Shown piece after piece: positions 14,668-45,294 of a stretch of 64,000 nt of DNA (positions are counted from its first letter, which is position 1; every line of letters starts with the position of its first letter). The position numbers were made by a program, and so were the translations under genes. This DNA is from Georgenia ruanii (GTDB lineage Bacteria; Actinomycetota; Actinomycetes; Actinomycetales; Actinomycetaceae). The stretch spans positions 1 through 64,000 of the forward strand of contig NZ_VUKE01000011.1 of the NCBI RefSeq assembly GCF_009193175.1, written 5' to 3'. The notes below the pieces were generated by a model. It was not told where the DNA came from, did no database searches, and worked only from the letters and a program-made list of their open reading frames with translations.

Positions 14668-16362
14668 TCAGCGCCGGGCGGGGCCAGGCCGGACCCGACC
14701 GCCCGCCGAGCGAGCCAGGCTCGTCGCGCCGGCCAGCGCCCGCCCGCCCAGGCCCGCCGCCGCGGCCCGCGCACGGCCGCCGAGCGTCGTCGGGCGGAGG
14801 AGCAGCTCGGCGCACAGGTATCCGGACAGGGCGTTGGTGCCCGCGCCCGGCCACGTCGCGGCCCCCACCTGGTACAGCCCCGGCACTCCGGTGACATACC
14901 CGGAGGCCCCCAGCCACGGCCGGAAGAGAAAGTTCTGGGCCACGTGGTGGCTGCCGGCCACGCTGTCCCCGCCGACGAGGTTCGGGTTCGACCGCTCCAG
15001 GTCCAGCGGCGAGAGCACGGTCCGCGCCCGCACCAGGGCGCCGAAGCCGGGCGCGTACGCCTCGATCTTGGCGACCACCCGGTCGGCCACCGCCTCCTTG
15101 GCGGCGTCCCAGTCATCGGCGGTGATCTCGCCGGCAGCGTCGCCGCGGATGGTCGAGGGCAGGCTGCGGACCTGGATCCAGACCACCTGCCGGCCGTCGG
15201 GGCTGCGGCTGGGGTCCACCTGGCTGGTCTGGCCGACCACCAGCAGGGGGCTGTCGGGGATCAGGCCCGCGAGCGACTGGGTGTACGTGCGGGCCAGGTC
15301 GTCGACGTAGGGCCCGACGTGGACGTAGGCGAACGAGGCCAGGTCCGGGTGGGCGGACCACGGGATCGGCCCGTCCAGTGCGAGGTGCACCATCATCGTG
15401 CCCGGGCCGTAGCTGAAGCGCCGGGCCTGCTCGCGCTCGGCGGCCGGGACGCCCGGAGCGCCGTCGAGAAGGTCGCCGAACAGGTGCACCGGCGCGGTGC
15501 CCGCGACGACGGCGCGGCGGGCCGCGATGGGTTCGCCGCCGACCACCACCCCGCGGGCGCGGCCGCCGTCCACCACGACGCGCTCCACCCGGGCGCCGGT
15601 GCGCACCTCGCCGCCCGCCTCCTCGACGAGGGCCGCCAGCGCGCGAGGCAGGCTGGAGACGCCGCCCTCGGCGATGGCGATGCCGGCCTCCATGTCCCCG
15701 AACGTCTCGACGAAGGGAAACATGGCGCCGAAGGAGACGTCGGGACCGTAGTCCAGGTGCATCCCCCAGGCGGCCAGCAACGACCGTGCCTCCGCCGTGG
15801 CGAACCATCGCTCGCCCAGCTCGCGGGTCGAGCAGGCCAGCAGCTGGGCGAAGGACGCCAGGCGGCGCACGCCGGCCCGCCGGACCGCTCCGGCCAGGTG
15901 CTGCAGCGCCGCACCGCTGGGCAGCCGCATGCCGTACAGCGGCATGAGGGTGGTCATGAACTCGTGCTGGAGCTCCCGCAGCCGGCGCCAGCCGGCCAGG
16001 TCCGCCTCGCTGTGGGCCCCGAGCTCCCGCTCCGTGCGCGCGGCGTCCTGGTAGACGCGCAGGCTCCTTCCGCCCGGGAAGACGCTGGCGTACGGCCGCT
16101 CGGAGACGACGGGCCGGAACCCGGTGCGGGCGAGGTCCTCGCGCAGCTCGGCGTAGACGGGGCTGGCCAGAAAGAGGTTGAGGTTCGTCGCGTACAGGTC
16201 GTGGACCAGCCCGGGCTCGGTCACCTCGCCGCTGCGGGTGGCGCCCCCCACGTCGTCGTTGCCCTCCAGGACGAGGACGTCCCAGCCGGCCCGGGCGAGG
16301 TACAGGGCGGTGACCAGGCCGTTGTGGCCGGCCCCGATGACGACGGCGTCGCAGGTGCGCAC
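14668..16362 (-). CDS. Phytoene-desaturase-like FAD-dependent oxidoreductase (COG1233), copy 1
   Basis: 564 residues. The N-terminal dinucleotide site is VVIGAGHNGLVTALYLARAG followed by a VLEGNDDVGGATRSGE segment; AEGGVSSLPRALAALVEEAGGEV is the mid-protein FAD contact; the C-terminus has PGLYQVGAATWPGAGTNALSG. The family includes carotenoid desaturases and amine/alcohol oxidoreductases; no carotenoid genes are nearby, so a catabolic dehydrogenation is likelier. The GTG at 16362 has GGAGG upstream. It is last in the ldh2-tautomerase-styA-crtI unit. A second family member is at 26158. Confidence 0.88.
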   Translation of the reverse strand: MRTCDAVVIGAGHNGLVTALYLARAGWDVLVLEGNDDVGGATRSGEVTEPGLVHDLYATNLNLFLASPVYAELREDLARTGFRPVVSERPYASVFPGGRSLRVYQDAARTERELGAHSEADLAGWRRLRELQHEFMTTLMPLYGMRLPSGAALQHLAGAVRRAGVRRLASFAQLLACSTRELGERWFATAEARSLLAAWGMHLDYGPDVSFGAMFPFVETFGDMEAGIAIAEGGVSSLPRALAALVEEAGGEVRTGARVERVVVDGGRARGVVVGGEPIAARRAVVAGTAPVHLFGDLLDGAPGVPAAEREQARRFSYGPGTMMVHLALDGPIPWSAHPDLASFAYVHVGPYVDDLARTYTQSLAGLIPDSPLLVVGQTSQVDPSRSPDGRQVVWIQVRSLPSTIRGDAAGEITADDWDAAKEAVADRVVAKIEAYAPGFGALVRARTVLSPLDLERSNPNLVGGDSVAGSHHVAQNFLFRPWLGASGYVTGVPGLYQVGAATWPGAGTNALSGYLCAELLLRPTTLGGRARAAAAGLGGRALAGATSLARSAGGRVRPGPARR

Positions 16363-16391: not shown

Positions 16392-18116
16392 TCAGCTCTC
16401 GGGCCGCGGACGGGTGACGTGGAACCTGCCGTCGTGGAACAGCAGCGGCTCGCCGCCGGCCCAGGAGTACCGCTCGACCTGGCCGACGTGGATGTCGTGG
16501 TCGCCGGCGTCGTGGACGGCCACGCGCCGGCACTCGAAGGAGGCGAGGGCGCCGGCGAGGACCGGCGCGCCGCCGAGCCCGTCCGTGTACTCCACGCCCG
16601 CGAACTTCTCCGGCGAGCCGGACACGGAGAACTGGCGTGAGAGGTGGTGCTGAGCGTCGGCGAGGATGTTGACGGCGAAGTGCTCCGCGCCGGCGAAGGC
16701 GGGCAGGCTGGTGGCTCGCTTCGAGGGGCACCACAGGATCAGCGGGGGGTCGATCGAGACGGACGTGAAGGAGTTCGCCGTCATGCCGTGGCACACGCCG
16801 TCGGCGTCCCTGGTCGTGACCACCGCGACACCCGTCGCGTACTGGCCGAGGGCGGCCCGGAAGTCGCGCGGGTCCACCGGGCCGCGTGCCTCCGCGGCGC
16901 TGCGGGAGATCAGCTCGGCGGCGTCGGCCGCCTCGAACCACCAGCGGTAGGCGGTGCGGGGGTCCTCGAGGCTGTTCGCCACCGCCTGGGCGACGCCGGG
17001 TACCGTCCCGGCCGCGGTGAGCAGCGTGCGCTGGTGCGCGGTGAGGTCCTCGAGGACGGAGTTCGTCCACAGGACCGCCCACTTGGCCCATCCCCGCCAG
17101 AACGCCTCGAACGTGCGCCGCTGCCACCCGGCGTCGAACTCCCTCTCGCCCCGGCGGAGGATGGCGTCGAGGTAGAAGTCCGCTGCGAGCGTGGCGTTGT
17201 TGGAGGGCTGCGAGGCGATGGGATCGGTGGCCACGACGGCGGTGCCCAGCCCGAGCACGGTGCGCCCGGACGGCAGTGTGCCCACCGGCTGGCGGACCAC
17301 GGGCGTGACCCGGCCGCGGGCGACGGACGTCTCGTCCAGGAGGCGCGCGCCCGCGAACCGCCCCGCCTGGGAGGGGAAGTGGTCGCCGAGCAGCTCGAGG
17401 GTGGTGGCGAGGTGGTCGTCGGCATCGGTGATGGCCTCGAGGCGGCGAGCCAGGTCCGTGCCGGCCCGCCCCTCGAACATCATGACCTGGGCGATCCCCC
17501 GCTCGGTGAGCATGGGATAGCTGAGGAACTCCCCCACGGCGGGATCGACGGCCAGGTGCAGGGCGGCGCCGGCCTGGTCCGGGGCGGCGCCGGTCACGAG
17601 GGCGACGGCGAGCGTCCGCTGCGGCGTGGTGAAGGCGGTGCGGGAGTGGTCGGTGGGGAACAGGGAACCCACCTCGCCCTTGCCGGTGGCCACGATGGTG
17701 AGGTCGTGGGTGGCCGCCAGCTCCTCGGTGGCGGCCACCGTCATGGACTCGATCCGCAAGGTCCCCCCACGGGACTGGAACAGGTCGAGCCAGGCGCTGT
17801 ACTTCAGGCGCAGGTCAACGGAGCGCGCCGGCGAGTCGAATGCGGTGCGCCAGTGCACCGGCTGGGGGCCGGTGAGGGTGAAGTCGAGGTCGCCGATCGT
17901 CGGCGCCTCCGCCTCCCAGGTGGGCAGGTCGGCGTTGTCCTCCACCTCCAGCGCGGGCGCGAACAGGCACGAGGTCGCCATGACCGCGCCCGCGCGGATC
18001 GACGCCGGGGCACGGTCGGTGACCAGGGACACCTGGTGGCCGTGGTGCTGGAGGCCGAGGGCGAGCTGGATGCCCGCCTGCCCGGCCCCCACGATCGCGA
18101 TGCGCCGCCCCGTCAC
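16392..18116 (-). CDS. Fused styrene/indole monooxygenase and flavin reductase (StyA2B type)
   Basis: 574 residues in two parts. Residues 1 to about 400 are a StyA-like FAD monooxygenase (RIAIVGAGQAGIQLALGLQ, then LRLKYSAWLDLF). From about 415 on is a StyB/HpaC-like flavin reductase (PRDFRAALGQYATGVAVVTT, MTANSFTSVSIDPPLILWC, HFAVNILADAQHHLSRQF). In the family StyA epoxidises styrene or indole with FADH2 from StyB; fused forms have been described in Rhodococcus. The GTG at 18116 is chosen because AGGAGGAGG precedes it by 6 bases; an ATG at 18137 has no good ribosome site. The true substrate here is unknown. Confidence 0.88.
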   Translation of the reverse strand: MTGRRIAIVGAGQAGIQLALGLQHHGHQVSLVTDRAPASIRAGAVMATSCLFAPALEVEDNADLPTWEAEAPTIGDLDFTLTGPQPVHWRTAFDSPARSVDLRLKYSAWLDLFQSRGGTLRIESMTVAATEELAATHDLTIVATGKGEVGSLFPTDHSRTAFTTPQRTLAVALVTGAAPDQAGAALHLAVDPAVGEFLSYPMLTERGIAQVMMFEGRAGTDLARRLEAITDADDHLATTLELLGDHFPSQAGRFAGARLLDETSVARGRVTPVVRQPVGTLPSGRTVLGLGTAVVATDPIASQPSNNATLAADFYLDAILRRGEREFDAGWQRRTFEAFWRGWAKWAVLWTNSVLEDLTAHQRTLLTAAGTVPGVAQAVANSLEDPRTAYRWWFEAADAAELISRSAAEARGPVDPRDFRAALGQYATGVAVVTTRDADGVCHGMTANSFTSVSIDPPLILWCPSKRATSLPAFAGAEHFAVNILADAQHHLSRQFSVSGSPEKFAGVEYTDGLGGAPVLAGALASFECRRVAVHDAGDHDIHVGQVERYSWAGGEPLLFHDGRFHVTRPRPES

Positions 18117-18144
18117 GACCGGCCTCCTCCTGTGCATCGGGCCG

Positions 18145-18351
18145 TCAGTGACGCTGCCCGGTGGCCTGCCGTTCGGCGAGGGTCTCCCCCGCGATCATGA
18201 GCTCCGCGGCGGGCACCTCGACGATCCAGGCGCGCACTGCCGACAGCGGGGTCCCGGTGCTCTCCTGCGCCGCGCGGGTGACGGCAGCGAGAAGCTCGCG
18301 CTTCTCCTCGTCGCTGCGGCCGGAGCCCATGGTGATCTGGATGAGGGGCAT
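18145..18351 (-). CDS. 4-oxalocrotonate tautomerase-family protein
   Basis: 68 residues beginning Met-Pro-Leu-Ile-Gln, so the catalytic Pro1 is available after Met removal. SDEEKRELLAAVTRAAQEST and AWIVEVPAAELMIAGETLAE fit the short tautomerase family. Such enzymes isomerise dienols formed after ring cleavage. GGAGG is 5 bases before the ATG. It lies between the LDH2 and styA-type genes in the same unit. Confidence 0.88.
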   Translation of the reverse strand: MPLIQITMGSGRSDEEKRELLAAVTRAAQESTGTPLSAVRAWIVEVPAAELMIAGETLAERQATGQRH

Positions 18352-18420: not shown

Positions 18421-19491
18421 TCAGCCGGCGTGGGTCGTCTCGAGCGGGCCGGCGGGCAGCTGCGCCCCGACCCGCTCCGCGACGCGCAGGATCCCGTCCA
18501 TCACGGTGGCGTCGATCTCGATCCCCTCGGTCTCGGCGCGGTGGCGCCGTTCGGCCTCCGGCTGGCCGGGCAGCATGATGCGCTCGACGCCGGGGCGGGC
18601 GCGCGAGCCCGTGACCTCGGCGGCCAGCGCGGCGACGCGCTCGTCGAAGCCCGGGCCGAACAGGGCGGGATCGATGGCCAGGAAGAAGTGCGCGCAGTCG
18701 TAGGGAACCGTCGCGTCCTTGTAGAGCGGTTGGACGCCGGCGCCGAACGCGCCGCCGGAAAGCACGCCCGAGAGGACGTCAATGACCAGCGCCAGCCCGA
18801 AGCCCTTGGGGCCGCCGGTGGGCAGGAGCATGCCCGCGATCGCAGCCGTCGGGTCGGTGGTCAGCTCGCCGTCCGCGTCGGTCGCCCAGGTGTCGGGGAT
18901 GGGGCGCCCTTCCGCCTCGGCGATGCGGATCTTGCCCATCGCGGCCTCGGAGAGCGCCATGTCCAAGGACATGACGGGCCCGCCGTTGCCGGGGATCGCG
19001 ATGGCCAGGGGGTTGTTGCCTACCACCGGCTGTGCGCCCCCGACGGCGGGCATGAGGGGCCTGGTGTTGGAGGTGGCGAGCCCGATGCAGCCTCGCTCGG
19101 CGGCCATCTCCGTATAGTTGGCAGCGCGCCCGAAGTGGAAGGCGTGGCGGACGGCGACGGCGCCGAGCCCGTAACGGTGCGCCTTGTCGAGCGCCAGCCC
19201 CATCGCCTGGTGCCCGGTGAGCTGGCCCAGGGCGTGCCGGCCGTCGAGGACGGCGACCGCACCGAAGTCCTCGACCACCTCGCCCTGCTCGTGGGTCGAG
19301 ACCGACCCGCCGAGCAGGCGGTCGACGTACATCGGGAGCAGCATGCTCCCGTGCGACGGCACGCCGGACATGTCCGCCTCGACGAGGCTCTCGGCGACGA
19401 GGCCGGCGGCGTGGTCCGAGAAGCCGACGGACCGGAACACGGAGCTCAGGGCCCCGCGCAGCCACTCCGCGCTGACGTGGTGGGCGCTCAT
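18421..19491 (-). CDS. LDH2-family (malate/L-lactate dehydrogenase-like) oxidoreductase, copy 1
   Basis: 356 residues of the NAD(P)H-dependent LDH2/MDHG2 family: LVEADMSGVPSHGSMLLPMYVDRL near the start, VRHAFHFGRAANYTEMAAERG with the catalytic His, NTRPLMPAVGGAQPVVGNNPLA and PTGGPKGFGLALVIDVLSGVLSGG. Members reduce 2-oxo acids, delta-1-piperideine-2-carboxylate or ureidoglycolate. It is first in the 19.5-14.7 kb unit, preceded by a degenerate island operator. The gene at 41874 is a same-length paralogue. Confidence 0.9.
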   Translation of the reverse strand: MSAHHVSAEWLRGALSSVFRSVGFSDHAAGLVAESLVEADMSGVPSHGSMLLPMYVDRLLGGSVSTHEQGEVVEDFGAVAVLDGRHALGQLTGHQAMGLALDKAHRYGLGAVAVRHAFHFGRAANYTEMAAERGCIGLATSNTRPLMPAVGGAQPVVGNNPLAIAIPGNGGPVMSLDMALSEAAMGKIRIAEAEGRPIPDTWATDADGELTTDPTAAIAGMLLPTGGPKGFGLALVIDVLSGVLSGGAFGAGVQPLYKDATVPYDCAHFFLAIDPALFGPGFDERVAALAAEVTGSRARPGVERIMLPGQPEAERRHRAETEGIEIDATVMDGILRVAERVGAQLPAGPLETTHAG

Positions 19492-19685: not shown

Positions 19686-20873
19686 TCAGGCCGGGACGTC
19701 GTCGGTGCGGCCGCCCCGTGCGGCACCTTCCAGGGGCGCGTCGGCGGCGGTGTCCGGCGCCGACGGCGTCCCGGGGGGCACCGACTCCGGGCGCCCGGCG
19801 CGCGCGCTCCCCCGCGCGGCGAACCGGTCCCACGGCCGGCGCAGGGCGAACTCTCGCCCGCCGGTGATGCCCTCGGGGCGCAGGAGCAGCACGAGCACGA
19901 GGACGGCACCGAGGACGATGAGCCGTGCCCCCTCGGGGACCGTGACGATCACGGGCCCGAGGACGACGCCGCCCTGGAAGAGCTGGAGCGCGGAGTCGAG
20001 GACGGAGTACGTGATGGTCCCGACCACGGCGCCCCACAGGCTCTGACGGCCGCCGAGGACCAGCATGGCGATAAGGGTGAAGGTGAACCCGATCCCGAGC
20101 TGGGAGGCCTGCACGACCCGGTTCGTCTCGGCCCACAGGGCCCCGCCGAGGCCGGCGACCGCCCCGGAGAGCACGAAGGCGACGATCCGGTGCCCGGTGA
20201 CGTTCACGCCCGACGCCGGCGCGGCGATCAGCGACTCCCGGCTCGCGCGGAGCAGGCGGGCGCTGCGGGTCTGCTGGTACAGCCACGAGACCGCGATGGT
20301 CCCGAGGGCGAAGAAGAGCAGCTGCTGCAGCCCGAGGACGTTCGGGATGCCGACCATGGACTGCCCGCTGGGCGGGGCGATCTTCGTCCAGTAGGTCAGC
20401 ACCTGCCCCACCATCAGCAGCAGGGCGAAGGTGGCGATGCCGGCCTGGAGGCCGTTGGCACGCATGAGGAACGGTGCGACCACCGCGGCGAAGACGCCGC
20501 CGCCGACCAGCGCCAGGACGACTGCCGTGCCGAGCGGGAGCTGAGTGTCGATGAGGACCGGGAAGGCGTTGGAGAGGAGGTTGGCCTTGAGCACCGGGTC
20601 GATGACCATGAGGCCGAAGACCCAGGCCCCGACGGCGACGAACGCCACGTGCCCGAAGGAGAGCACCCCGGAGTTGCCGATGAAGATCTGCAGGCCGACC
20701 ACGATGACGAGGTTGACGAGGGCGTACTCGGCCTGGACCGGCAGGGCGCCGCCCATGAGGCTCGCCAGGAGGATCCAGATGTAGACGACCACGAGCGGGC
20801 CGGCGAGGGTGACGAGCCGGGCCCCGAGGCCGGGCCGGGCGGGAGCGTGCCCGCCGGAGGTGTCGGTGTTCAT
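19686..20873 (-). CDS. livM: Branched-chain amino acid-type ABC transporter permease LivM
   Basis: 395 residues, eight or more membrane segments, with GNSGVLSFGHVAFVAVGAWVFGL near the N-terminus and RESLIAAPASGVNVTGHRIVAFVLSGAVAGLGGALWA, the LivM cytoplasmic loop that contacts the ATPase. The C-terminus is extended by about 60 polar residues. It is the last gene of livKGFHM, with an ATGA-type overlap with livH. In aromatic-catabolic clusters such HAAT transporters import aromatic acids. Confidence 0.92.
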   Translation of the reverse strand: MNTDTSGGHAPARPGLGARLVTLAGPLVVVYIWILLASLMGGALPVQAEYALVNLVIVVGLQIFIGNSGVLSFGHVAFVAVGAWVFGLMVIDPVLKANLLSNAFPVLIDTQLPLGTAVVLALVGGGVFAAVVAPFLMRANGLQAGIATFALLLMVGQVLTYWTKIAPPSGQSMVGIPNVLGLQQLLFFALGTIAVSWLYQQTRSARLLRASRESLIAAPASGVNVTGHRIVAFVLSGAVAGLGGALWAETNRVVQASQLGIGFTFTLIAMLVLGGRQSLWGAVVGTITYSVLDSALQLFQGGVVLGPVIVTVPEGARLIVLGAVLVLVLLLRPEGITGGREFALRRPWDRFAARGSARAGRPESVPPGTPSAPDTAADAPLEGAARGGRTDDVPA

Positions 20874-21751
20874 GCGCGCTCCAGGACTGGGCCGCGGACC
20901 AGCAGGCCGGACGGCTTGAGGATGAGGATCACCATGACGACGGCGAAGACGAAGGCGTTCCGGAAGTTCACCGCCTCGCTCGGCAGGTAGGTGGTCAGGG
21001 CCGAGCTGGCGAAGCCGACCAGGAAGCCGCCCACCAGGGCGGTCCCGAGCTTGTCGATCCCGCCGATGACGGCGCCGATGAGAGCGAGCACCGTGACGTT
21101 CACGCCGAAGGTGGGGGCGACCGCGCCGGTCTGCACCGTGAGGACGAATGCGACAACGGCGGCCAGCGCCCCGCTGATGCCGAATGTCAGCGCGATGACC
21201 TTGTTCGCCCGGACTCCGAGCAGCCGTGCGGTGGCGAAGTCGGCCGACGCCGCCTGGACCTGCAGGCCCAGGCTCGAGCGGTTGAGGAACTGGTGCAGGG
21301 CGAGGAGCAGGATCGCCGCCGCGAGGATCGTCACGAGGGAGAGCATCTGCACCCGCATCCCGGCGATCTCGACCGAGCGCGCCAGCGCCGGCGCCACCGG
21401 AGCGGTGCGGACGTTGTTGCCGAAGGCGATCTCGTAGACGCGCTGGAGCAGGAAGCTCAGCCCGAAGCTGGCGATGAGCAGGGTCGCGGGGTTGGCGCGG
21501 CGCATCCGCCGGAAGACGGCGAACTCCAGCAGCAGGGCGAGCACGACGGAGGCGAGGAGCGCCAGCGGGAGGGCGACCCAGGGCCCCAGGTGCCAGGTGA
21601 GCACCAGGCTGTACGCGGCGATCGTGATGAGCTCGCCGTGCGCGAAGTTGGCCAGGCGCATGACGCCGAAGACGAGGCCGATGCCCAGCGCGGCGAGCCC
21701 GTAGAGGGCGCCGTTGGAGATGGCGTCGATGAGTGCTTGGACGTTGGTCAT
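20870..21751 (-). CDS. livH: Branched-chain amino acid-type ABC transporter permease LivH
   Basis: 293 residues: ALIDAISNGALYGLAALGIGLVFG at the start, RLANFAHGELITIAAY, and ATARLLGVRANKVIALTFGISGALAAVVAF, the LivH coupling loop. Multiple membrane segments run throughout. It overlaps livF upstream and livM downstream by four bases each, so the genes are probably translationally coupled. Confidence 0.94.
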   Translation of the reverse strand: MTNVQALIDAISNGALYGLAALGIGLVFGVMRLANFAHGELITIAAYSLVLTWHLGPWVALPLALLASVVLALLLEFAVFRRMRRANPATLLIASFGLSFLLQRVYEIAFGNNVRTAPVAPALARSVEIAGMRVQMLSLVTILAAAILLLALHQFLNRSSLGLQVQAASADFATARLLGVRANKVIALTFGISGALAAVVAFVLTVQTGAVAPTFGVNVTVLALIGAVIGGIDKLGTALVGGFLVGFASSALTTYLPSEAVNFRNAFVFAVVMVILILKPSGLLVRGPVLERA

Positions 21752-22473
21752 GATCCGAAGTAGGCCTTCGTGAGGAGGGCTTCGTCGTCGGCGGCCTCGG
21801 GCGTGAGCTCGAGGGTGATCTCGCCGTCGTGCAGCACATAGGTGCGGTCGGCGAAGGCGATGGTGAACTCGGCGCGTTGCTCGACGACGAGCACGGCGGT
21901 GCCCTGGGCGCGCACGGCCTCGAGGGCCTCGAAGACCGTGTCGACCGCGGTGGGCGAGAGGCCGAGGGACGGCTCGTCGAGCATGAGGACGTCGGGCCGG
22001 GCCAGGAGCGCCCGGCCGATCGCCAGCTGCTGCTGCTGACCGCCGGAGAGCAGCCCGGCCGCCCGGTCCGCGAACTCCCGCAGGACCGGGAAGAGCTCCA
22101 GGACGGCCTCGAGGTCCTCGGCGGAGCCGGCGCGGTCCCGGCGGCCGACCAGCCCCAGGCGCAGGTTGTTGCGCACGGAGAGGTCCCCGAAGATGTGCCG
22201 CCCCTCCGGCACCAGGGCCAGACCCCGGCGGATCACGGTCTCCGGGGGCAGCCCGGTGATGTCCGCGCCGCCGAGGCGCACGTCGCCGGTGCAGCGGACG
22301 GCTCCCATCAGCGCCTGGAGCGTGGAGGACTTCCCGGCGCCGTTGGGCCCGATGAGGCCCACCGTCTCGCCGCGCCCCACGGTGAAGGAGATGCCCTTCA
22401 CCGCGGGGACGCCACTGTAGCGGACCTCCAGGCGGTACACCTCGAGGGCGGGGTCAGGCGGCGTCGTGGACAC
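21748..22473 (-). CDS. livF: Branched-chain amino acid-type ABC transporter ATPase LivF
   Basis: 241 residues: Walker A GPNGAGKSSTL, signature LLSGGQQQQLAIGRAL, Walker B VLMLDEPSLGLSP, and the LivF hallmark GLALVPEGRHIFGDLSVRNNL. The GTG start overlaps the livG end by 20 bases. It supplies energy for the LivHM channel together with LivG. Confidence 0.95.
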   Translation of the reverse strand: MSTTPPDPALEVYRLEVRYSGVPAVKGISFTVGRGETVGLIGPNGAGKSSTLQALMGAVRCTGDVRLGGADITGLPPETVIRRGLALVPEGRHIFGDLSVRNNLRLGLVGRRDRAGSAEDLEAVLELFPVLREFADRAAGLLSGGQQQQLAIGRALLARPDVLMLDEPSLGLSPTAVDTVFEALEAVRAQGTAVLVVEQRAEFTIAFADRTYVLHDGEITLELTPEAADDEALLTKAYFGS

Positions 22474-23209
22474 GTCCGCTCCTTCCCAGGTAGGCCTCGG
22501 CCAGGGCCTCGCTGCCCTGGACCTCCGCGGGCGTGCCCTCGAGGAAGCTCTTCCCCTGGACGACGACGTGGATCAGGTCGCAGACGGCCATGATGAGGCG
22601 GATGTTGTGGTCGATGAGCAGCACGCCGGTCCCGGCGGCCGCGATGGAGCGCACCACCTCGCCGAACTCCCCGATCTCGCCCTCGTTGAGGCCGGCCGCG
22701 GGCTCGTCGAGCAGGAGGTAGCGCGGTTCCACCGCGAGCGCCCGGGCGACGCCCAGGCGCCGTTCCGTGCCGTGCGGGAGGGTGGCGGCCATCTGGTTGG
22801 CGCGGTCGGCGATGCCGAGCCGCTCCATCAGCTCCTCCGCCCGGCGGCGGGCCTCCGCCCGCCGCCGGCCGGTGCCGAGGGCAGCCACCTCGATGTTCTC
22901 GCGCACCGACAGCCCGTGGTAGGTGTGCCCGTGCTGGAAGGTGCGGGCCAGCCCCGACCGCGCCTTGGTGCGCGCGTCGGTGCGGGTCACGTCCGTGCCG
23001 TCCATCGTGACGGTCCCCGTGTCGGGGCGGTCGTAGCCGCTGATGATGTTCACCAGGGTCGACTTCCCCGCCCCGTTCGGGCCGATGAGGCCCAGCACGG
23101 CCCCCCGGGTCACCGCGAGGTCGACGCCGGAGAGCGCCTTGACCCCGCGGAAGGACCGGGTGATGCCGGTGGCCGCGAGCGTGTCGGTCATGGCTGCCTG
23201 CTCGCTCAT
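22454..23209 (-). CDS. livG: Branched-chain amino acid-type ABC transporter ATPase LivG
   Basis: 251 residues: Walker A GPNGAGKSTLVNIISG, the LivG-specific RTFQHGHTYHGLSVRENIEVA, Walker B YLLLDEPAAGLNEGE and LLIDHNIRLIMAVCD. The signature motif reads LPHGTERRLGVARAL rather than LSxGxQ, a common variation in LivG where LPYG is typical. It overlaps livK by four bases. Confidence 0.95.
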   Translation of the reverse strand: MSEQAAMTDTLAATGITRSFRGVKALSGVDLAVTRGAVLGLIGPNGAGKSTLVNIISGYDRPDTGTVTMDGTDVTRTDARTKARSGLARTFQHGHTYHGLSVRENIEVAALGTGRRRAEARRRAEELMERLGIADRANQMAATLPHGTERRLGVARALAVEPRYLLLDEPAAGLNEGEIGEFGEVVRSIAAAGTGVLLIDHNIRLIMAVCDLIHVVVQGKSFLEGTPAEVQGSEALAEAYLGRSGRVHDAA

Positions 23210-24429
23210 CCGGCGAAGGTCACCTTCTCGGGGGCGCGCTCCTCCACGAAGGCGAGCTTGCCGTCCTTGACGACCAGCACCCGCATGGGCCGCTCGACCG
23301 AGATGTGCAGGTCCTTCGAGAACTCGGTGGGGCCGGCGAGCAGGTCCAGCGGGCCCATGGTCTCCAGCGCGGCGGTGAGCTTGTCGCCGTCCCAGCTGCC
23401 GGCCTTCTCGTAGGCCGCCTTGATGGCCTGGAGGGTCGAGGCGCCCGCGACGAAGGCACCGACCGAGGGCCGCTCGCCGTACGCCTTCTCGTAGGCGTCG
23501 GCCGCCTCGTTCACGGCGGGCACGGGGTCGTCGCCGTTCTTCGCGGCGTAGGTGACCACGTAGTAGTCGCTCAGGCCGGGGATGCCCCCGGTCCAGAAGT
23601 CGCCGTCCATGCCGAAGCCGGAGATGATCGGGGCGGTCACGCCGCCGTCGCGCATCTCCTTGGCGACCGTCGCGCCGCCCGGGGAGTAGCCGCAGTTGGC
23701 GATGACGGCGGGCGCCTCGCCCGCGGCCACGGACGAGACGGTCTCGCGGACCGAGTCGCCCTGCTGGTAGTCGTACTTGGCGATGATCGTGCCGCCGAGC
23801 TCGGTGAACCGCTTCTCGAAGATCTCGCACTGGTTCTGCGTGTACTTCAGCGTGGTGTCGGTCAGCAGGACGGCGCTGGTCCAGCCCTGCTCGTAGGCGA
23901 ACTCGGCCTGGATGGTCGCCTCCCCCGGCGTCCCGCTCCCCATCGAGAAGCCGTTCTTCAGGCCACCGGCCGGACCGTAGATCGGGTCGCCGATGCACGG
24001 GGCGACGCTCAGGACGTTCTCGGACTCGGCCACGAGGGCGGCGGGCGAGGAGACGTCGTAGTCGCAGGTGACCACGAGCGCCTTCGCGCCGCCACCGAGG
24101 AGCTCCGTGGCGGCGGAGGCGTACCGGTCGAGGTTCGTGCCGGTGTCGATGACCTTCAGCTCGACCTCCTGGCCGCCGATGCCGCCGTCGGCGTTGAGCC
24201 GGTCCACCTCGAGCTTCATGGCGTTGAGCGGCGGGGTGTCGATCGGACCCATGAAGCCAGAGCTGGCCATGACCACGCCGATGGTGACCTTGCCGCCGGC
24301 GGAGGTCGAGGTCGAGGCGCCGTCGGTGGCCGCGTCCCCGCCCGTGGGGGCGCTGGAGACGCAGCCGGACAGGAGCAGGGCCGCCCCGGCGAGGCCGGCG
24401 AGCGGGACGGAGAGGCGAGGGAGGGACAT
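23206..24429 (-). CDS. livK: Branched-chain amino acid-type ABC transporter substrate-binding lipoprotein LivK
   Basis: 407 residues. A signal peptide ends in the lipobox LLSGCVSS, followed by a Thr/Ser-rich linker and a type I periplasmic-binding fold starting VTIGVVMASSGFMGPID. GGIGGQEVELKVIDTGTNLDRY and CDYDVSSPAALVAE are typical. It is first of livKGFHM and would define the imported compound; the ligand cannot be read from sequence. A degenerate operator lies about 90 bases upstream. Confidence 0.93.
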   Translation of the reverse strand: MSLPRLSVPLAGLAGAALLLSGCVSSAPTGGDAATDGASTSTSAGGKVTIGVVMASSGFMGPIDTPPLNAMKLEVDRLNADGGIGGQEVELKVIDTGTNLDRYASAATELLGGGAKALVVTCDYDVSSPAALVAESENVLSVAPCIGDPIYGPAGGLKNGFSMGSGTPGEATIQAEFAYEQGWTSAVLLTDTTLKYTQNQCEIFEKRFTELGGTIIAKYDYQQGDSVRETVSSVAAGEAPAVIANCGYSPGGATVAKEMRDGGVTAPIISGFGMDGDFWTGGIPGLSDYYVVTYAAKNGDDPVPAVNEAADAYEKAYGERPSVGAFVAGASTLQAIKAAYEKAGSWDGDKLTAALETMGPLDLLAGPTEFSKDLHISVERPMRVLVVKDGKLAFVEERAPEKVTFAG

Positions 24430-24574: not shown

Positions 24575-26161
24575 TCAGGCGCGGCTCAGCGCCGGCGCGC
24601 CGACCACGGCCGTGTACCGGGCGGTGATCTCCCCCGCCCGGTCGAGCGGCAGGATCGCCGCCACGTGGGCGTCGGGGCGCAGGAGCACCACGGCGTCCCC
24701 CGCCAGCCCGAAGCGGCGGCGCAGCCGGTCTGCGGGGTCGAACAGCGCCCGGTCGCGCAGGCCGGAGTCGTGCGGCGCGTCCCACCGGCTGACGACGTAG
24801 TGGCGCAGGCCCGGCACGGTCGGGCGCGGGATGGCAGGCTGGCGCCGGGCGTCGGCGAAGTGCAGGGCCACGAAGGAGTCCGCGCACAGGTCGTGGAGGT
24901 GGACAAGGCCCTCGGGCCCGAAGACGGGCAGGTCGGGCGCCCGGTCCCCCGTCACGACCGGCAGCGGCGCGTCGCCGGCCTTGACCATCGACCAGTCGCC
25001 GTCGCCCCCGACGTCGAGGCGGACGCCGAGCAGGGCCCGGGTGAAGGCGTTGCCCCAGTTCCCCTCCCCCATCGCGGAGACGTCAGCGGCGCGGCGGCCC
25101 ATGTTCGCCCGCGCCGCCTCGGCCAGCGCGCCGGACCCCTGGATCGCCACGGGCGCCTGCTCCTGCTCGTACCCGCCCAGCACGGTCTCGTCGGCCCAGC
25201 CGCGGAAGAGCCACGCGAGACGCCAGGGCAGGTTGGAGGCGTCGAGGACGCCGGTGTTCAGGCCCAGCGCCCACATGGGCGTGATGAGGTGCGCGGCGTC
25301 CCCCATGAGGAAGACCCGGCCCACGTTCCACGTCTCGGCCACCCGGTGGTGGACGCTGTAGATGTTGGTGCCCAGGATCTCCATGCTGTCGGTCTCGCCG
25401 ATGAAGCGGGCGACCTTCTCGGCGAACTCCTCCCGGCTCGGTTCCGGGCGGCCGGGCGGGAGCGGGAAGAGGAAGCGCCAGCAGTGGGGCTGGCGCACCA
25501 GCACCATCCACTCCTCCGGATCACCGAAGTACGCCAGGTACGGGTAGTCGCGCGGGTTGGCCAGGTCGAGGTCGACCTTCAGGTCGACGAGGGTGTACCG
25601 CTCCTCGAGGGTCTTGCCCTCGACCGTGATGCCGAGCTGCTCGCGGATGGTCGAACGGCCCCCGTCGCAGCCGAGCACATAGCTGACCTCCTCGCGTACC
25701 TCCCCCGCCGGGCCGTCGAGGACCAGCTCGACGCCGTCGCCGTCGTCGGCGAACTCGCGCAGCCGGTGGCCCATGCGCAGCGCGCCGGGAGCCTTGCGCT
25801 CGAGCGCGTCCCGCAGGAGCGGCTCGAGCTCGTGCTGGGGGATGTTGATGACGAACGGGTAGCGGGTGTCCTCGGTGAGGTCGCCGGTGCGTACGGAGAG
25901 CGTGGAGGCGTTCGTGGCCCGGTCCAGCTCGCCGATCTCGTCGACCCGCACGGCGGCGCGCAGCACGTCGTCCAGCGCCCCGTAGCGGTGGAGCACCTCG
26001 AGGGTGCGGGTGAGGATCGTGCCCGCCTTGGTGTCCAGCGAGAGGCGGTCGTCCTCCTCGAAGACGACGACGGGCACCCCGTAGTGGGCCAGGCCGATGG
26101 CGGTCACGAGCCCGACCGGGCCGCCGCCGACGACGGCCACGGGGCGTTCGAGGTTGGTCAC
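24575..26161 (-). CDS. FAD-dependent aromatic hydroxylase (MhpA/PheA-like), copy 1
   Basis: 528 residues of the class A flavoprotein monooxygenases. The FAD site is VAVVGGGPVGLVTAIGLAHYG; the DG motif is GCDGGRSTIREQLG (about 165); the GD motif is GRVFLMGDAAHLITPMWALG (about 290); the C-terminal 130 residues look like the thioredoxin-fold domain of phenol hydroxylases. It hydroxylates an aromatic ring using NAD(P)H and O2. The GTG start overlaps the stop of the upstream gene, with AAGGAGGAG before it. It is last in the cox-LLM unit; the gene at 39461 is a close paralogue. Confidence 0.9.
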   Translation of the reverse strand: MTNLERPVAVVGGGPVGLVTAIGLAHYGVPVVVFEEDDRLSLDTKAGTILTRTLEVLHRYGALDDVLRAAVRVDEIGELDRATNASTLSVRTGDLTEDTRYPFVINIPQHELEPLLRDALERKAPGALRMGHRLREFADDGDGVELVLDGPAGEVREEVSYVLGCDGGRSTIREQLGITVEGKTLEERYTLVDLKVDLDLANPRDYPYLAYFGDPEEWMVLVRQPHCWRFLFPLPPGRPEPSREEFAEKVARFIGETDSMEILGTNIYSVHHRVAETWNVGRVFLMGDAAHLITPMWALGLNTGVLDASNLPWRLAWLFRGWADETVLGGYEQEQAPVAIQGSGALAEAARANMGRRAADVSAMGEGNWGNAFTRALLGVRLDVGGDGDWSMVKAGDAPLPVVTGDRAPDLPVFGPEGLVHLHDLCADSFVALHFADARRQPAIPRPTVPGLRHYVVSRWDAPHDSGLRDRALFDPADRLRRRFGLAGDAVVLLRPDAHVAAILPLDRAGEITARYTAVVGAPALSRA

Positions 26162-27810
26162 TTCTCCTCCTTGCGGGGGCCCCGCGGGGCGGGGCCGGGA
26201 CGGGGGCCGGGGCGACGGACGGCCGGCCGGTCGGTGCGCCGGACGAGCCGGGTGGCGGCCCGGTAGCCGGAGCCGGCGCCCAGGCCCGGCCCGGGGTGGA
26301 CGGCGGCGCCGATGTGCAGCAGGGCGTCGACGCCGGTGCGGCCCGCCCCGTCGGGGAAGGGCCGCCACCACAGGTTCTGGTCGAGCTCGGCGGATCCGCC
26401 GTAGGGGTCACCCGCCACCGCGTTGGGGTTGCGCGCGAGCAGGTCGGGCGGGGTGGTGACGCGCACGTGGCGGATCGCGGCGTCGAGGTTCGGCGCGTGG
26501 GCGGCCACCCGCTGGAGGACACGTTCGGCGTAGGCGTGCGCCAGCGCCGCGGTCCAGCCCCCGTCGGTGCGCAGCTCACCGGCGGCGTCGCCGACCGGCG
26601 CGAAGGGCACCTCCTGCAGCTGCAGCCACAGCGCGCCGGCGCCGGGCGGCACCCGGGAGTGGTCGAGCAGGTGCTGACGGCCCACGACGACGGTGGGCCT
26701 CCTCGGCAGCAGGCCCGCCTCCGCCTCGGCGCAGGCGATGCCTGTCGAGGCCGAGCCGTCGCTGACGTGCACGAGGGGGACATCGGCCAGCCGCTCGTCG
26801 GTCCAGGCCAGCGGCCGGTCGAGGGTGACGTGGACGTGCATCGCCGCCCGGCCGGGTCGGTAGGACGCCGCTGCCGCGCGGTGGCGGGGGGATGCGGCTG
26901 GCCCGAGCAGCTGGCCGTAGAGGGCCTGCGGGGACACGGACGCCAGGACCGCCCGGCGGGCCGGGATACGCCGGCCGCCGGCTGACACGCCCACGGCCCG
27001 CCCGCCCCGCACGAGGATCTGCTCGACGGACGTGCCGGTCACCACCCGCACGCCGAGCTCGGCGAGCAGCCCCTCGAACGCGGCGACGAAGTTGCCGGCG
27101 CCGCCCTCCACCACCGGCAGGCCGGCCAGGTGGGTCGAGGCGGCGAAGACCGGGAGCATGAACCCGCCCGAGGCGCTGTCCGGGGACAGACCGGCGTGCA
27201 GCAGCCACGGCACCCACAGATGGTCGACCTCGCGGCCGCGGAAGGTCCGGGCCGCCCAGGACCGGCCCGAGGCGAGCAGGTCCCGGGCGAGGTGCTCCGT
27301 CCCGCGCAGGCCGAGCCGGCCGCCGAGGCCGAGGGCCGCCCGGACGCCGCCCAGGGAGCGCAGGTCCGCGCCCATGAGCGCGCCGATGTGGCCGGCGCGA
27401 CCGGCGAAGCCCTCCACCATGGCCAGGTACGCGCTCCGGTCGGCCCGGTCGGCGAGGGCGCGGGCGGTGGTCTCGGGGTCCCGGTGGGCGACGGTGACGC
27501 GCCCGTCATCGCCCACGCTGGCCGTGACCGCGCCGTCGGTGTTGCGGTAGCTCAGGCCGTGCCGGGCCAGGTCCGGGCCCAGCTCGGCGAAGGCCGGGGA
27601 GGTGACGAAGAGCGGGTGCCAGGAGGAGTACAGGTCGTCGACGTACCCCGGCGTGGTGGCCTCGCCGGAGGCGATGAAGCCGCCGATCCGCTCGTTGCGG
27701 TCGACCAGCACCACGTCCCAGCCCGCGCGGGCCAGCACGGCCGCCGCGACCATGCCGTTGACACCGGCACCGACGACGACGGCGTCGGGCGACACGGTCG
27801 GCGTGCTCAC
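26158..27810 (-). CDS. Phytoene-desaturase-like FAD-dependent oxidoreductase (COG1233), copy 2
   Basis: 550 residues: VVVGAGVNGMVAAAVLARAGW and DVVLVDRNERIGGF form the N-terminal FAD site; VVEGGAGNFVAAFEGLLAEL is the mid contact; the C-terminal flavin motif is LLHIGAAVHPGPGLGAGSGY, followed by a Pro/Arg-rich tail. It is a relative of copy 1 at 14668. It overlaps both neighbours by four bases, so it is co-expressed with the FMN reductase and the ring hydroxylase. Role inferred: oxidation of a pathway intermediate, not carotenoid synthesis. Confidence 0.88.
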   Translation of the reverse strand: MSTPTVSPDAVVVGAGVNGMVAAAVLARAGWDVVLVDRNERIGGFIASGEATTPGYVDDLYSSWHPLFVTSPAFAELGPDLARHGLSYRNTDGAVTASVGDDGRVTVAHRDPETTARALADRADRSAYLAMVEGFAGRAGHIGALMGADLRSLGGVRAALGLGGRLGLRGTEHLARDLLASGRSWAARTFRGREVDHLWVPWLLHAGLSPDSASGGFMLPVFAASTHLAGLPVVEGGAGNFVAAFEGLLAELGVRVVTGTSVEQILVRGGRAVGVSAGGRRIPARRAVLASVSPQALYGQLLGPAASPRHRAAAASYRPGRAAMHVHVTLDRPLAWTDERLADVPLVHVSDGSASTGIACAEAEAGLLPRRPTVVVGRQHLLDHSRVPPGAGALWLQLQEVPFAPVGDAAGELRTDGGWTAALAHAYAERVLQRVAAHAPNLDAAIRHVRVTTPPDLLARNPNAVAGDPYGGSAELDQNLWWRPFPDGAGRTGVDALLHIGAAVHPGPGLGAGSGYRAATRLVRRTDRPAVRRPGPRPGPAPRGPRKEEK

Positions 27811-29590: not shown

Positions 29591-30025
29591 TCAGCCGCGT
29601 GCGCTGGCGGCCGCGGCCGCCTGGAGCACGTCCCCGATGGCTCGGGTGACGATCTCGGCGCCCACGCGCTGACCCACGCTGGCCGCGGTGCCGCCGAGGA
29701 GGACGTCGGCCTCCCAGCGCACCGTCGAGCCGCCGTCAGCGGGGTCGAAGCTGAGCAGGAGGTCGGCGTCGACGAGGTTGCTCCCCCGGGTGGCGCGCAC
29801 GGCGACCGCGGCGGAGGAGTCGGTGACCCGCCCGGGGGTGATGGTCGTCGTGAACCGGATCGGGCCGAGGGAGATGACGGGGTAGTACTCCACGCGGAGC
29901 GAGCCGTCCTCCGCGACCTCGACGTCCCGGAAGGCCGGGACGCCGGCGAGCACCTCGGGCGAGGCGGCCAGCGACCGCAGCGCGTCGGGAGCGGCGGGGG
30001 TGTCGAACGTGCCGGCGAGCTTCAT
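29591..30025 (-). CDS. coxG: CoxG-like SRPBCC protein
   Basis: 144 residues: LAGTFDTPAAPDALRSLAASPEVLAGVPAF is the START-like opening of CO-dehydrogenase subunit G proteins. It is shorter than CoxG of carboxydotrophs and has no C-terminal membrane segment. It overlaps the coxL stop by four bases. Likely role: docking or maturation of the molybdenum hydroxylase. Symbol used by family resemblance only. Confidence 0.82.
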   Translation of the reverse strand: MKLAGTFDTPAAPDALRSLAASPEVLAGVPAFRDVEVAEDGSLRVEYYPVISLGPIRFTTTITPGRVTDSSAAVAVRATRGSNLVDADLLLSFDPADGGSTVRWEADVLLGGTAASVGQRVGAEIVTRAIGDVLQAAAAASARG

Positions 30026-32469: not shown

Positions 32470-33020
32470 GCCCGCGCCTCCTCGGCCTCGGTGTGGCGGC
32501 CGTGCGGCAGCGGGGCGTCGGCCCCGCCGGCGGCGCAGACGGCGTTGACGATGTTCTCGTAGCCGGTGCAGCGGCAGATGTTGCCCTTCAGGGCCCGGCG
32601 CACCGACTCGTTGGTGACCTCTTCACCCGACTCGAGGAAGTCGGTGGCGGTCATGAGGAACCCGGAGGTGCAGTAGCCGCACTGGAGTGCGTGGTGCTCC
32701 TTGAACTTCTGCTGCAGGTCGTTCAGCGTGCCGTCCTCCGCGGCGAGCGACGCGGCGGTCTCGACCTCGGAGCCGTCGGCCTGCACGGCCAGGATCATGC
32801 AGGACTTGGCGAGCTTGCCGTCCCAGCGGACGGTGCAGGCGCCGCAGTTGCCCGTGTCGCAGCCGATCTTCGGGCCACGTCGGTCGAGGTCGTCGCGCAG
32901 CCAGTGGACGAGCAGCTTGCGCGAGGGGACGACGCCCGTGCGCGTCTCGCCGTCGACGGTGACGGTGATGGCGTGGAGATCCGGACCTGTGAGCAGGTCC
33001 GCGGTGGTCTGCTGGCTCAT
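32466..33020 (-). CDS. Molybdenum hydroxylase 2Fe-2S subunit (CoxS-like)
   Basis: 184 residues. The plant-type 2Fe-2S site is CDTGNCGACTV plus a later Cys in AKSCM; the second cluster is CGYCTSGF and ICRCTGY. It passes electrons from the molybdenum site to FAD in the CoxM-type subunit. The ATG at 33020 overlaps the coxM stop. The C-terminal tail is about 25 residues longer than usual and acidic. Confidence 0.95.
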   Translation of the reverse strand: MSQQTTADLLTGPDLHAITVTVDGETRTGVVPSRKLLVHWLRDDLDRRGPKIGCDTGNCGACTVRWDGKLAKSCMILAVQADGSEVETAASLAAEDGTLNDLQQKFKEHHALQCGYCTSGFLMTATDFLESGEEVTNESVRRALKGNICRCTGYENIVNAVCAAGGADAPLPHGRHTEAEEARA

Positions 33021-33883
33021 GCCTGCTCCTTCTCGATGAGGTCGACCAGGGCCCGGCGCAGCTGCACCTTGGCCATCGCGCGCCGGTACTGGGCGCTGCC
33101 GTGGGTGTCGGAGATGGTCTCGAACGGCTCGGTGTCGAAGGCCTTCAGCGCCGCCGTGACCGCCTCGGGGGCGGCCGGGCGCCCGGCGAGCGCGGCCTCC
33201 ACCGCGGACAGGCGCAGCGGGGAGCCGGGCACCGCGCCGAGGAAGACGCGCGGGTCGGCGAGCGTGCCGCCGCTGACGCCGGCTCGCACCACCACCCGGG
33301 CCAGCGCCCACGAGTCCCGGGCGAGCTGCATGTGGCGGTGGACCAGGCGGTCCGCCACCGGCAGCCCGGGGACGTGCACGGCGAGGAGCAGCCCGCCGCC
33401 GGTCACCGCGGTACACAGGGCGCCGCGGAAGAAGTCCGCCGCGGGCAGGGTGACGGTGGCGCCGTCGACGATGACCTCGAAGGTGGCGCCCAGCGCCGAG
33501 AGCAGCGGCGGGAAGTTGTTCGTGGGGTCGTTCAGCGAGACGTTCCCGCCGATGGTGCCCCGGTTGCGGACCTGGCGGTCCACCAGGCCGGCGGCCATCT
33601 CGGCCACGGCCGGGACCACCTCGTTGACGAGGGGATCGGAGGCCAGCTCGGCGTACGTCGTCGCCGCGCCGATCCGGAGGCCGTCGGCGGAGCGCGCGAC
33701 GCCGCGCAGCTCGTCGAGGGCGTGCACGTCGATCAGCGCCGACGGCGAGACCAGGTCCAGCTTGAGGGCGTTGATCAGCGTCTGGCCACCGGCCAGCACG
33801 GCCGAGCCCGGTACCTCGCGCAGGAGGGTGGCGGCATGCCCGGCGCTCTGCGGCCGGACGTACCGGAAGGGCGGAAGAATCAT
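33017..33883 (-). CDS. Molybdenum hydroxylase FAD subunit (CoxM-like)
   Basis: 288 residues: FRYVRPQSAGHAATLLRE, the FAD loop AVLAGGQTLINALKLDL and the second FAD motif RNRGTIGGNVSLNDPTNNFPP. It is the first gene of a minus-strand unit that continues through coxS, coxL, coxG, LLM, FMN reductase, FAD oxidoreductase and ring hydroxylase. The exact island operator lies about 75 bases upstream. Confidence 0.94.
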   Translation of the reverse strand: MILPPFRYVRPQSAGHAATLLREVPGSAVLAGGQTLINALKLDLVSPSALIDVHALDELRGVARSADGLRIGAATTYAELASDPLVNEVVPAVAEMAAGLVDRQVRNRGTIGGNVSLNDPTNNFPPLLSALGATFEVIVDGATVTLPAADFFRGALCTAVTGGGLLLAVHVPGLPVADRLVHRHMQLARDSWALARVVVRAGVSGGTLADPRVFLGAVPGSPLRLSAVEAALAGRPAAPEAVTAALKAFDTEPFETISDTHGSAQYRRAMAKVQLRRALVDLIEKEQA

Positions 33884-33959
33884 GAAGGGGACCTTCCTCT
33901 CGAGCCCGGGGGCTCGTTCGTCGTCGTCGACTCGAATGGCGGGAAGCATCGCGAATCTG

Positions 33960-34896: not shown

Positions 34897-35051
34897 CCGC
34901 CGGGCCGCGCGAGGCGGTGCGCCCTGGCCCTGACGCGCCCCTCTCCCGTCCGTGCTCCCGGGATGAGCTCCCCGGGCGTGACACCCAGCGCCGCCCGGCC
35001 GGCTGGCGCCGGAGCGGCCCGACACGGGCGCGTTCCGATGGCCAACCGTCA

Positions 35052-35067
35052 TGACATGTGATCACAT
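35052..35067 (+). promoter_or_regulatory. Island operator upstream of gntR copy 2
   Basis: TGACATGTGATCACAT, 16 of the 20 bases of the full palindrome TGACATGTGATCACATGTCA. It is in plus orientation relative to the exact cores, about 60 bases before the gntR start. An ATG lies inside the site, but translation from there is unlikely. Confidence 0.7.
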
Positions 35068-35128
35068 ACTCCCCAGGGCCGCGTGGCGCAGCGACGGCGC
35101 CCGCCGCCAAACTGACGAGAGGGAACCG

Positions 35129-38158: not shown

Positions 38159-38235
38159 GTGGTCTTTCCTTTCGGTGGAAGGGTTCTGGCCCCGTGGCGG
38201 GTGGGATCGTCGTGCCCGGGACCGGTGCGGGTGGG

Positions 38236-41143: not shown

Positions 41144-41148
41144 GCGGG

Positions 41149-45287: not shown

Positions 45288-45294
45288 GGACTGC

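Follow-up and report, generated by a model that had tools for sequence, protein, structure and literature searches.

The fusion and its identity

The stretch of DNA analysed here (the window) comprises the first 64,000 nucleotides of contig NZ_VUKE01000011.1 of Georgenia ruanii (assembly GCF_009193175.1), and the gene in question encodes a StyA2B-type (ImoA2B) protein, in which a StyA/IndA-like oxygenase and a StyB-like flavin reductase are joined in one polypeptide. Its minus-strand frame at 16392–18116 is unbroken over 574 codons, with a stop at 16392–16394 and an in-frame ATG at 18137 as an alternative start that would give 581 amino acids (aa); the plus-strand reading of the same stretch is interrupted by a stop. 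Both parts are recognized by Pfam, Smoa_sbd at residues 145–253 (E 2.2e-25) and Flavin_Reduct at residues 424–567 (E 5.5e-40), and an unbroken fused frame occurs in three further Georgenia genomes at 73–96% identity, so that the fusion is neither a frameshift artefact nor a product of chance, and a reading as two genes is ruled out. An earlier note on this DNA, drawn from the letters alone, had described StyA- and StyB-like parts in a single polypeptide, and the open frame, the domains and the orthologs bear this out; the note named no strand, which is the minus strand.

The oxygenase half is nearest by sequence to the indole monooxygenase (IMO) VpIndA1 (E 3.7e-96) and to the Acinetobacter baumannii enzyme (9lrq), with the styrene monooxygenases (SMOs) ranking behind, and its predicted fold superposes on VpIndA1 with a TM of 0.96 by target length at 40% identity; the closest solved structures for the reductase half are several flavin reductases. 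The structure model of the fusion has a mean pLDDT of 87 and a pTM of 0.71, the final ~15 residues being modelled poorly; with regard to a possible place in the skatole monooxygenase (SkaMO) clade, its best structural matches are IMOs. The scores against the NCBIfam equivalogs for StyA (195 bits, cut-off 550) and StyB (104 bits, cut-off 200) are below the cut-offs, and the SMO fingerprint N46-V48-H50-Y73-H76-S96 (PMC13101512) is not present in the Georgenia fusion; together these rule out a styrene-pathway reading. A match of the reductase half to the RutF model (E 2.8e-23) falls short of the RutF cut-off and is weaker than those to five other reductase models. Judged by sequence, the fusion is a member of the IMO ("E2", StyA2B/IndA2B) lineage, the styrene branch being excluded. 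The label styrene/indole monooxygenase in the earlier note thus holds for the StyA–StyB architecture and not for a styrene/indole generalist, and its placement outside a styrene cluster stands, since no recognisable styrene cluster surrounds the gene. No match to the styrene-oxide isomerase model NF045734 was obtained in the fusion's own genome, though the model drew a blank in the 14 control genomes too.

The missing partner and the distribution of fusions

At E <= 1e-60 the fusion is found in 4 of the 213 genomes of the family, with one match each, and all four belong to Georgenia (9 genomes in all); the fusion-bearing loci include those of Georgenia sp. SYP-B2076 (L035) and G. thermotolerans (L038). 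With the StyA1 of Nocardioides immobilis (L036) as query, only the fusion itself was matched in all four of these genomes, the fusion's own genome being 97% complete. The sequences thus identify the Georgenia fusion as solitary, its StyA1/IndA1 companion missing. The fusion is usually clustered with StyA1 according to a 2018 review (PMC6165268), and the characterised fusions are described as acting mainly as reductases for StyA1/IndA1 (PMC6017014; PMC6165268), the very partner that is missing here; the term self-sufficient in the earlier note is an inference.

The locus search gave 75 loci, 64 of them with an unbroken fused frame; those that are broken, split, unfused or fragments were left out of the fusion count (for example L050, L092, L095, L102, L093, L096, L097, L103, L106, L107 and L109). 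A second StyA lies within the fetched stretch in 53 of the 64 loci, and the 11 without one are two Georgenia loci, eight from Nocardioidaceae and L043, whose genome carries StyA1-like genes on other contigs and a StyA1-like fragment at the start of the fusion's contig. The eight Nocardioidaceae loci (L072, 10001–11713; L077, 9977–11743; L080; L081; L082; L085; L087; L104) form a clade of solitary StyA2B fusions: none of the eight stretches holds a second StyA, and no StyA1 was found elsewhere in the five of these genomes that were searched. In L072 and L077 a BD-FAE alpha/beta hydrolase gene immediately precedes the fusion, and the rest of the stretch is housekeeping-like. The reciprocal of the Georgenia state is seen in Thermocrispum agreste (L096, 9998–11772) and Streptomyces humicola (L097, 10004–11816), where a StyA1-type oxygenase directly precedes a stand-alone flavin reductase and the intervening A2 domain is lacking; of these two loci, gene calls cover L096. 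Outside the actinobacteria, StyA2B fusions with StyA1 on the opposite strand occur in metagenome-assembled genomes of Acidobacteriota (L059, L074, L075, L076, L078, L079 and L083). As of 2017 one source gave fusions as known only in Actinobacteria and Variovorax (PMC6017014), and the view in the earlier note that they occur mainly in a few actinobacteria is too narrow, as both Variovorax and Acidobacteriota carry them.

Ancestry and rate of change

In a maximum-likelihood tree of the oxygenase half, built from 50 chosen rows, Georgenia falls within the actinobacterial A2B clade with a support of 100/99, and the clade with Georgenia in it holds in a second tree from which four long-branch rows were removed; L020, unfused and on a long branch, is placed inside the A2B clade in the 50-row tree. 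Descent from StyA1 instead of A2B is rejected, as a grouping of Georgenia with the actinobacterial StyA1s gives a p-AU of 1.25e-5, and a single origin of all solitary fusions (Georgenia and Nocardioidaceae), with a p-AU of 0.386, is neither established nor rejected. Of the two results that would have refuted the earlier note, neither was obtained: there is no frameshift, and the oxygenase half groups with group E IMOs, not with unrelated flavoproteins. The Variovorax and acidobacterial fusions do not belong to the actinobacterial A2B clade; they group with the StyA1s in the other large clade, a position that for Variovorax agrees with the convergent origin suggested for its system (PMC6165268).

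The stem leading to Georgenia is very long, with roughly 1.0–1.2 changes per site in the oxygenase half, and the stem of the reductase half is also long (0.72 vs 1.13 for the oxygenase half), which indicates that the whole protein changed quickly; the notion that only the oxygenase half was accelerated was dropped for this reason. Within Georgenia, NG86 dN/dS values of 0.15–0.43 for the A half and 0.03–0.40 for the B half point to purifying selection on both, and a decaying pseudo-domain is unsupported by these ratios, which are probably inflated because a G+C content of 72% depresses dS.

Replaced residues in the oxygenase half

Residue counts refer to 149 rows of at least 380 aa: 143 lie outside Georgenia and 6 come from four Georgenia genomes, two of which are represented twice (as L005/L038 and L006/L035). 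Through the way it was sampled, the row set is enriched for fusions and their StyA1s. Two positions that are invariant elsewhere are replaced throughout Georgenia: the aspartate of the GD motif (143/143 against 0/6, all with Thr292) and the glycine of the QG motif (143/143 against 0/6, all with Pro304), both retained by the enzymes of known structure, VpIndA1, A. baumannii IMO and Pseudomonas StyA. In class A monooxygenases the FxxGD aspartate (286 in PHBH) contacts the ribityl O3', and in the re-face loop that follows, Pro293 and Leu299-Asn300 lie next to the flavin ring (PMC3546652). Spacing in the group E motif GLAD/GLGD...DP..GQG.N is that of class A (+7 to Pro, +14 to Asn), and from this the group E GD loop would correspond to the class A FxxGD and re-face loop. 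Altogether 12 of 74 near-invariant columns (at least 97% one residue elsewhere) are replaced in all six Georgenia rows, and GAGQAG, GKGE and DPI..Q..NN are kept.

The IMO fingerprint S46-Q48-M50-V/I73-I76-A96 (PMC13101512) is likewise altered, reading A46-S/Q48-L50-I73-L76-A96 in Georgenia, with Q48 kept in G109 only; S46 (141/143 others) has become Ala and M50 (131/143 others) Leu. Phe201 and Phe191 of VpIndA1, the positions varied in PDB 7z97 and 7zca, are Phe in 140/143 and 108/143 rows, respectively, and correspond to Leu198 and Leu188 in G. ruanii. The solitary Nocardioidaceae fusions resemble the Georgenia form in lacking a second StyA and in belonging to the actinobacterial A2B clade, and differ from it in their context, in keeping the GD aspartate and QG glycine, and in their fingerprint SSQ[IV]T.

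Replacement of invariant flavin-contact positions under maintained selection would fit an oxygenase half turned into a non-oxygenase domain, such as a sensor for substrate or flavin, or an electron-transfer module, with the function of the fusion lying outside monooxygenation; the retention of GAGQAG, GKGE, DPI..Q..NN and Smoa_sbd speaks against it, and this explanation is regarded as highly improbable.

The gene cluster around the fusion

The fusion belongs to a cluster of about 32 kb, mostly co-directional, in which it stands shortly after the 4-oxalocrotonate-tautomerase-like (4-OT) and Ldh_2 genes (Table 1). The tautomerase, LDH2 enzyme and desaturase-like oxidoreductase listed as neighbours in the earlier note are all present on the minus strand. 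The amidohydrolase matches solved ACMSD with an E of 8.9e-29, and "cupin B" has no Pfam match and was named by eye. Elsewhere in the window, two adjacent minus-strand frames at 57818–59434 resemble by eye a transposase split in two.

Table 1. Features of the fusion and of the surrounding cluster (window coordinates)
Feature	Position	Strand	Remarks
StyA2B-type (ImoA2B) solitary fusion	16392..18116	minus	574 aa from GTG 18116; translation, Pfam, orthologs in three other Georgenia genomes
Oxygenase (A2) half	16902..18116	minus	about residues 1-405; StyA/IndA-like; GAGQAG dinucleotide motif kept; VpIndA1 fold
Flavin reductase (B) half	16395..16874	minus	about residues 415-574; Flavin_Reduct
Codons of residues 47-51, Ala-Thr-Ser-Cys-Leu	17964..17978	minus	replace Ser-Ser-Gln-Cys-Met, IMO fingerprint region
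Thr292 codon	17241..17243	minus	GD-motif position; Asp in 143/143 non-Georgenia rows
Ser302-Gln303-Pro304 codons	17205..17213	minus	replace Gly-Gln-Gly of flavin-contact loop
CrtO1, CrtI/CrtO-like FAD oxidoreductase	14668..16362	minus	29 bp downstream of fusion
4-OT-like protein	18145..18351	minus	Pro1, Arg11, Arg39 present, which we take to be the catalytic residues
Ldh_2-family dehydrogenase, copy a	18421..19491	minus	
Five-gene branched-chain-amino-acid-type (LIV) ABC transporter	19686..24429	minus	permease 20870-21751 by Pfam; other four named from sequence
FADMOa, FAD_binding_3 monooxygenase	24575..26161	minus	
CrtO2, amine-oxidase/phytoene-desaturase-like FAD oxidoreductase	26158..27810	minus	
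NADPH-dependent FMN reductase	27807-28319	minus	
LLM, SfnG/RutA-like luciferase-family monooxygenase	28316-29443	minus	
CoxG and three-subunit Mo-hydroxylase CoxL/S/M	29591..33949	minus	L nearest to the CoxL of CODH and to quinoline 2-oxidoreductase; S assigned from sequence
Two GntR/FCD-type regulators	34201..35827	plus	Pfam scan for the first; second assigned from its sequence
Lower module (copy b): ACMSD-like amidohydrolase, FAH, RidA, cupin A, "cupin B", FADMOb, SDR, Ldh_2	35899..42926	minus	
Copy-b GntR regulator and NMT1-type ABC transporter	43001..46329	minus	45295-46329 by Pfam; others named from sequence

The cluster is shared with other genomes in a more compact form. In G104 and G109 the order is CoxM-S-L-G, amidohydrolase, LLM, FMN reductase (only in G109), CrtO2, SDR and FADMO, continuing with the LIV transporter, LDH2, cupins, RidA, FAH, 4-OT, the fusion and CrtO1. 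In Nocardioides immobilis (L036) and Streptomyces sp. Ru71 (L037) this set of core enzymes is found around StyA1/StyA2B, and in Thermocrispum agreste (L096) around an oxygenase of StyA1 type with a separate StyB. The first two share with Georgenia the Mo-hydroxylase, FADMO, SDR, CrtO2, LDH2, cupin and amidohydrolase, with RidA and FAH found in L036 only, as the L037 stretch ends before that point; unlike Georgenia, they keep StyA1, its SDR and the flavin-contact residues. LLM, 4-OT and CrtO1 were not found in the parts read of the L036, L037 and L096 stretches, which have an extra SDR and a regulator, of AraC type by Pfam in L036 and alike in appearance in the others.

Among the 10 of 12 cluster proteins that are comparable across G. 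ruanii, L036 and L037 (the fusion and 9 enzymes, with L036 Ldh_2 incomplete because it is cut by the stretch end, and with amidohydrolase, SDR, FAH, RidA and cupin A represented by copy-b genes that may be paralogs), excess divergence in Georgenia is greatest for the fusion: its identity is 52% between G. ruanii and N. immobilis and 69% between N. immobilis and Streptomyces Ru71. Seven of the 9 other enzymes differ by 1–7 points (for example FADMOa 74/77, CoxS 73/75, cupin A 73/74), with CoxL (69/80) and the amidohydrolase (55/65) falling in between. The copy-b amidohydrolase, SDR, RidA, FAH and cupin A are nearer to the G107 versions than to those of G104/G109.

Of the 9 Georgenia genomes, 4 carry the fusion (E <= 1e-60) together with CoxL (E <= 1e-150), and the other 5 lack both. 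In G107 (L128-L129, C3:838648-849065), which has neither, the lower module stands alone, with amidohydrolase, FAH, RidA, both cupins, FADMO, SDR, LDH2, GntR and its own ABC transporter, and no Mo-hydroxylase, LLM or fusion was found in the 40 kb read around it. Most of the lower module also occurs on Agrobacterium plasmid pQ15_94_2 (L126), beside a Rieske dioxygenase, and on Mesorhizobium loti pML2037 (L127), beside Mo-hydroxylases, with cupin, Ldh_2, RidA, FAH, FADMO and amidohydrolase as the plasmid-borne families; neither plasmid is among the 27 records matching the fusion. This co-occurrence, together with the lower module standing alone in G107 and with most of it lying beside other front-end oxygenases on the plasmids, assigns the fusion to an interchangeable upper part, or front end.

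The whole is a conserved actinobacterial catabolic cluster, probably for a nitrogen-containing ring compound, and the lower-module families (amidohydrolase, RidA, FAH, 4-OT) presumably fit an aminomuconate-like or hydroxy-N-heteroaromatic intermediate. No known pathway was matched by comparison of the cluster enzymes with the PDB and NCBIfam, by the plasmid clusters or by literature searches. Catabolism of riboflavin/lumichrome, which uses P450, Rieske and TPP enzymes (PMC12746152), does not fit.

Function of the fusion

The reading that we tentatively favour, with slightly less than even confidence, is that the Georgenia protein is a self-sufficient oxygenase retuned to a probably non-indole substrate, at the front end of an N-heteroaromatic catabolic cluster. 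The protein descends from the A2B partner in an actinobacterial pair of indole monooxygenases, IndA1/IndA2B (StyA1/StyA2B); on this reading its IndA1 was lost in Georgenia, and the surviving fusion would have been rebuilt and kept as the front-end oxygenase. The reductase half would use NADH to form FADH2 and pass it to the oxygenase half within the same polypeptide, where a (hydro)peroxyflavin would form and oxygenate a C=C/enamine or sulfide-type position of a probably non-indole substrate; the product would then proceed through Mo-hydroxylase and flavin-enzyme steps to the lower module of FADMO, cupin, amidohydrolase, RidA and FAH. The fusion, its ancestry, the missing partner, the changed residues, the constraint and the conservation of the cluster are read from the sequences, and the FADH2 transfer in cis, the oxygenation, the order of the steps and the substrate class are proposed by analogy with characterised relatives.

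Several points weigh against this reading. Without the GD aspartate and QG glycine, the oxygenase half might bind FAD poorly or fail to oxygenate, and characterised fusions are described mainly as reductases (PMC6017014; PMC6165268). Some of the replacements are not unique to Georgenia: the first Gly of GQG is Ser302 in 6/6 Georgenia rows and Ser also in 9/143 others, Leu76 is found in 26/143 non-Georgenia rows, and Leu at position 191 in 2. The acceleration is shared by the reductase half, the divergence comparison includes the possible paralogs and the truncated Ldh_2 given above, and the NCBIfam matches of the scanned neighbours (8 of 10 had any) are all below the curated cut-offs, the proposed pathway being based on family membership.

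A role as reductase donor, in which LLM or another cluster oxygenase receives reduced flavin from the B half and the oxygenase half survives as a scaffold or as a remnant with a regulatory role, is thought unlikely, and is given real weight because the flavin-contact residues are lost. The LLM is SfnG/RutA-like, which can be set beside the sub-cut-off RutF match of the B half and the mainly reductive role of the characterised A2B proteins (PMC6017014; PMC6165268). The FMN reductase that adjoins LLM has no match in the 60-kb stretch of G104 (best E 0.47), and of the three genomes with a StyA1-type-oxygenase cluster, two give no LLM match at E <= 1e-40 and one a match at 39%. Against such a donor role, an FMN reductase does lie beside LLM in G. 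ruanii and G109, and purifying selection acts on the oxygenase half as it does on the reductase half, the predicted fold of the former being kept.

An ordinary indole or skatole monooxygenase, in which the residue changes are neutral and the fusion alone epoxidises indole-type substrates, with anthranilate-like products entering the lower module, would be in keeping with the IMO-lineage fold and ancestry, the retained A96 and I73 of the fingerprint, and the aminomuconate-type families of the lower module (RidA, FAH, ACMSD-like amidohydrolase, 4-OT). It is considered improbable in view of the loss of S46, M50, Q48 (in 3/4 genomes), the GD aspartate and the QG glycine, and of the SDR that accompanies StyA1, for which no close ortholog was found in the fusion's own genome (best E 3.1e-32, 36%) or in G108. 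An ortholog of this SDR lies near a second LLM in G104 and G109, followed in G109 by an FMO-type enzyme and an AraC regulator; this second G109 cluster (L034, 5605–11812) comprises the LLM paralog, a Pfam-less protein, the SDR ortholog, the FMO-like monooxygenase and the AraC regulator. The suggestion in the earlier note of an indole- or enamine-like substrate is plausible as far as an N-heteroaromatic or enamine-like compound is concerned, whereas simple indole-to-indigo chemistry is made doubtful by what that note overlooked: the full extent of the cluster, the absent partner and the replaced residues of the active site.

Comparison with known systems and significance

Fused IMOs are already known, and the lone, residue-altered Georgenia form is a variant of them. 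The prototype is the IndA1/IndA2B (StyA1/StyA2B) system of Rhodococcus opacus 1CP, which is not in a styrene cluster (PMC4460183, PMC6165268, PMC13101518); by description its fusion is, like that of Georgenia, actinobacterial and a single polypeptide with the same domain order, but it works together with an IndA1 encoded in its own gene cluster and by itself shows low epoxidase activity, whereas no IndA1 was found in Georgenia. VpIndA1 of Variovorax paradoxus EPS shares the fold of the Georgenia oxygenase half and keeps GLAD, GQG and SSQCM, and the fusions of other Variovorax strains are 44–47% identical to that of Georgenia (best segment). In the open-licence literature, which leaves most subscription papers uncovered, no description was found of the Georgenia fusion, of a StyA1-less fusion or of these residue losses.

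That the Georgenia protein is a one-component group E flavoprotein, a former helper A2B that survived its partner oxygenase and was rebuilt without the GD aspartate, the QG glycine and the IMO fingerprint, serving at the N-heteroaromatic front end either with a new kind of oxygenation or as a flavin donor in trans to a luciferase-type oxygenase, is put forward as a possibility judged less likely than not; if true, none of the group E members compared here would have a flavin site like the one with which this enzyme works. Whether natural A2B fusions are true one-component oxygenases or chiefly reductases for IndA1 is under discussion (PMC6165268, PMC6017014), and Georgenia offers a natural test of A2B function, with no partner to confuse it. 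One conserved cluster, common to several actinobacteria and with most of its lower part also on two rhizobial plasmids, shows three states: A1 with A2B (L036, L037), an A1-type oxygenase with a separate B (L096), and A2B alone (Georgenia). In the last of these, the rewritten flavin loop poses the testable question of whether oxygenation is possible for a group E fold that lacks the GD aspartate and QG glycine.

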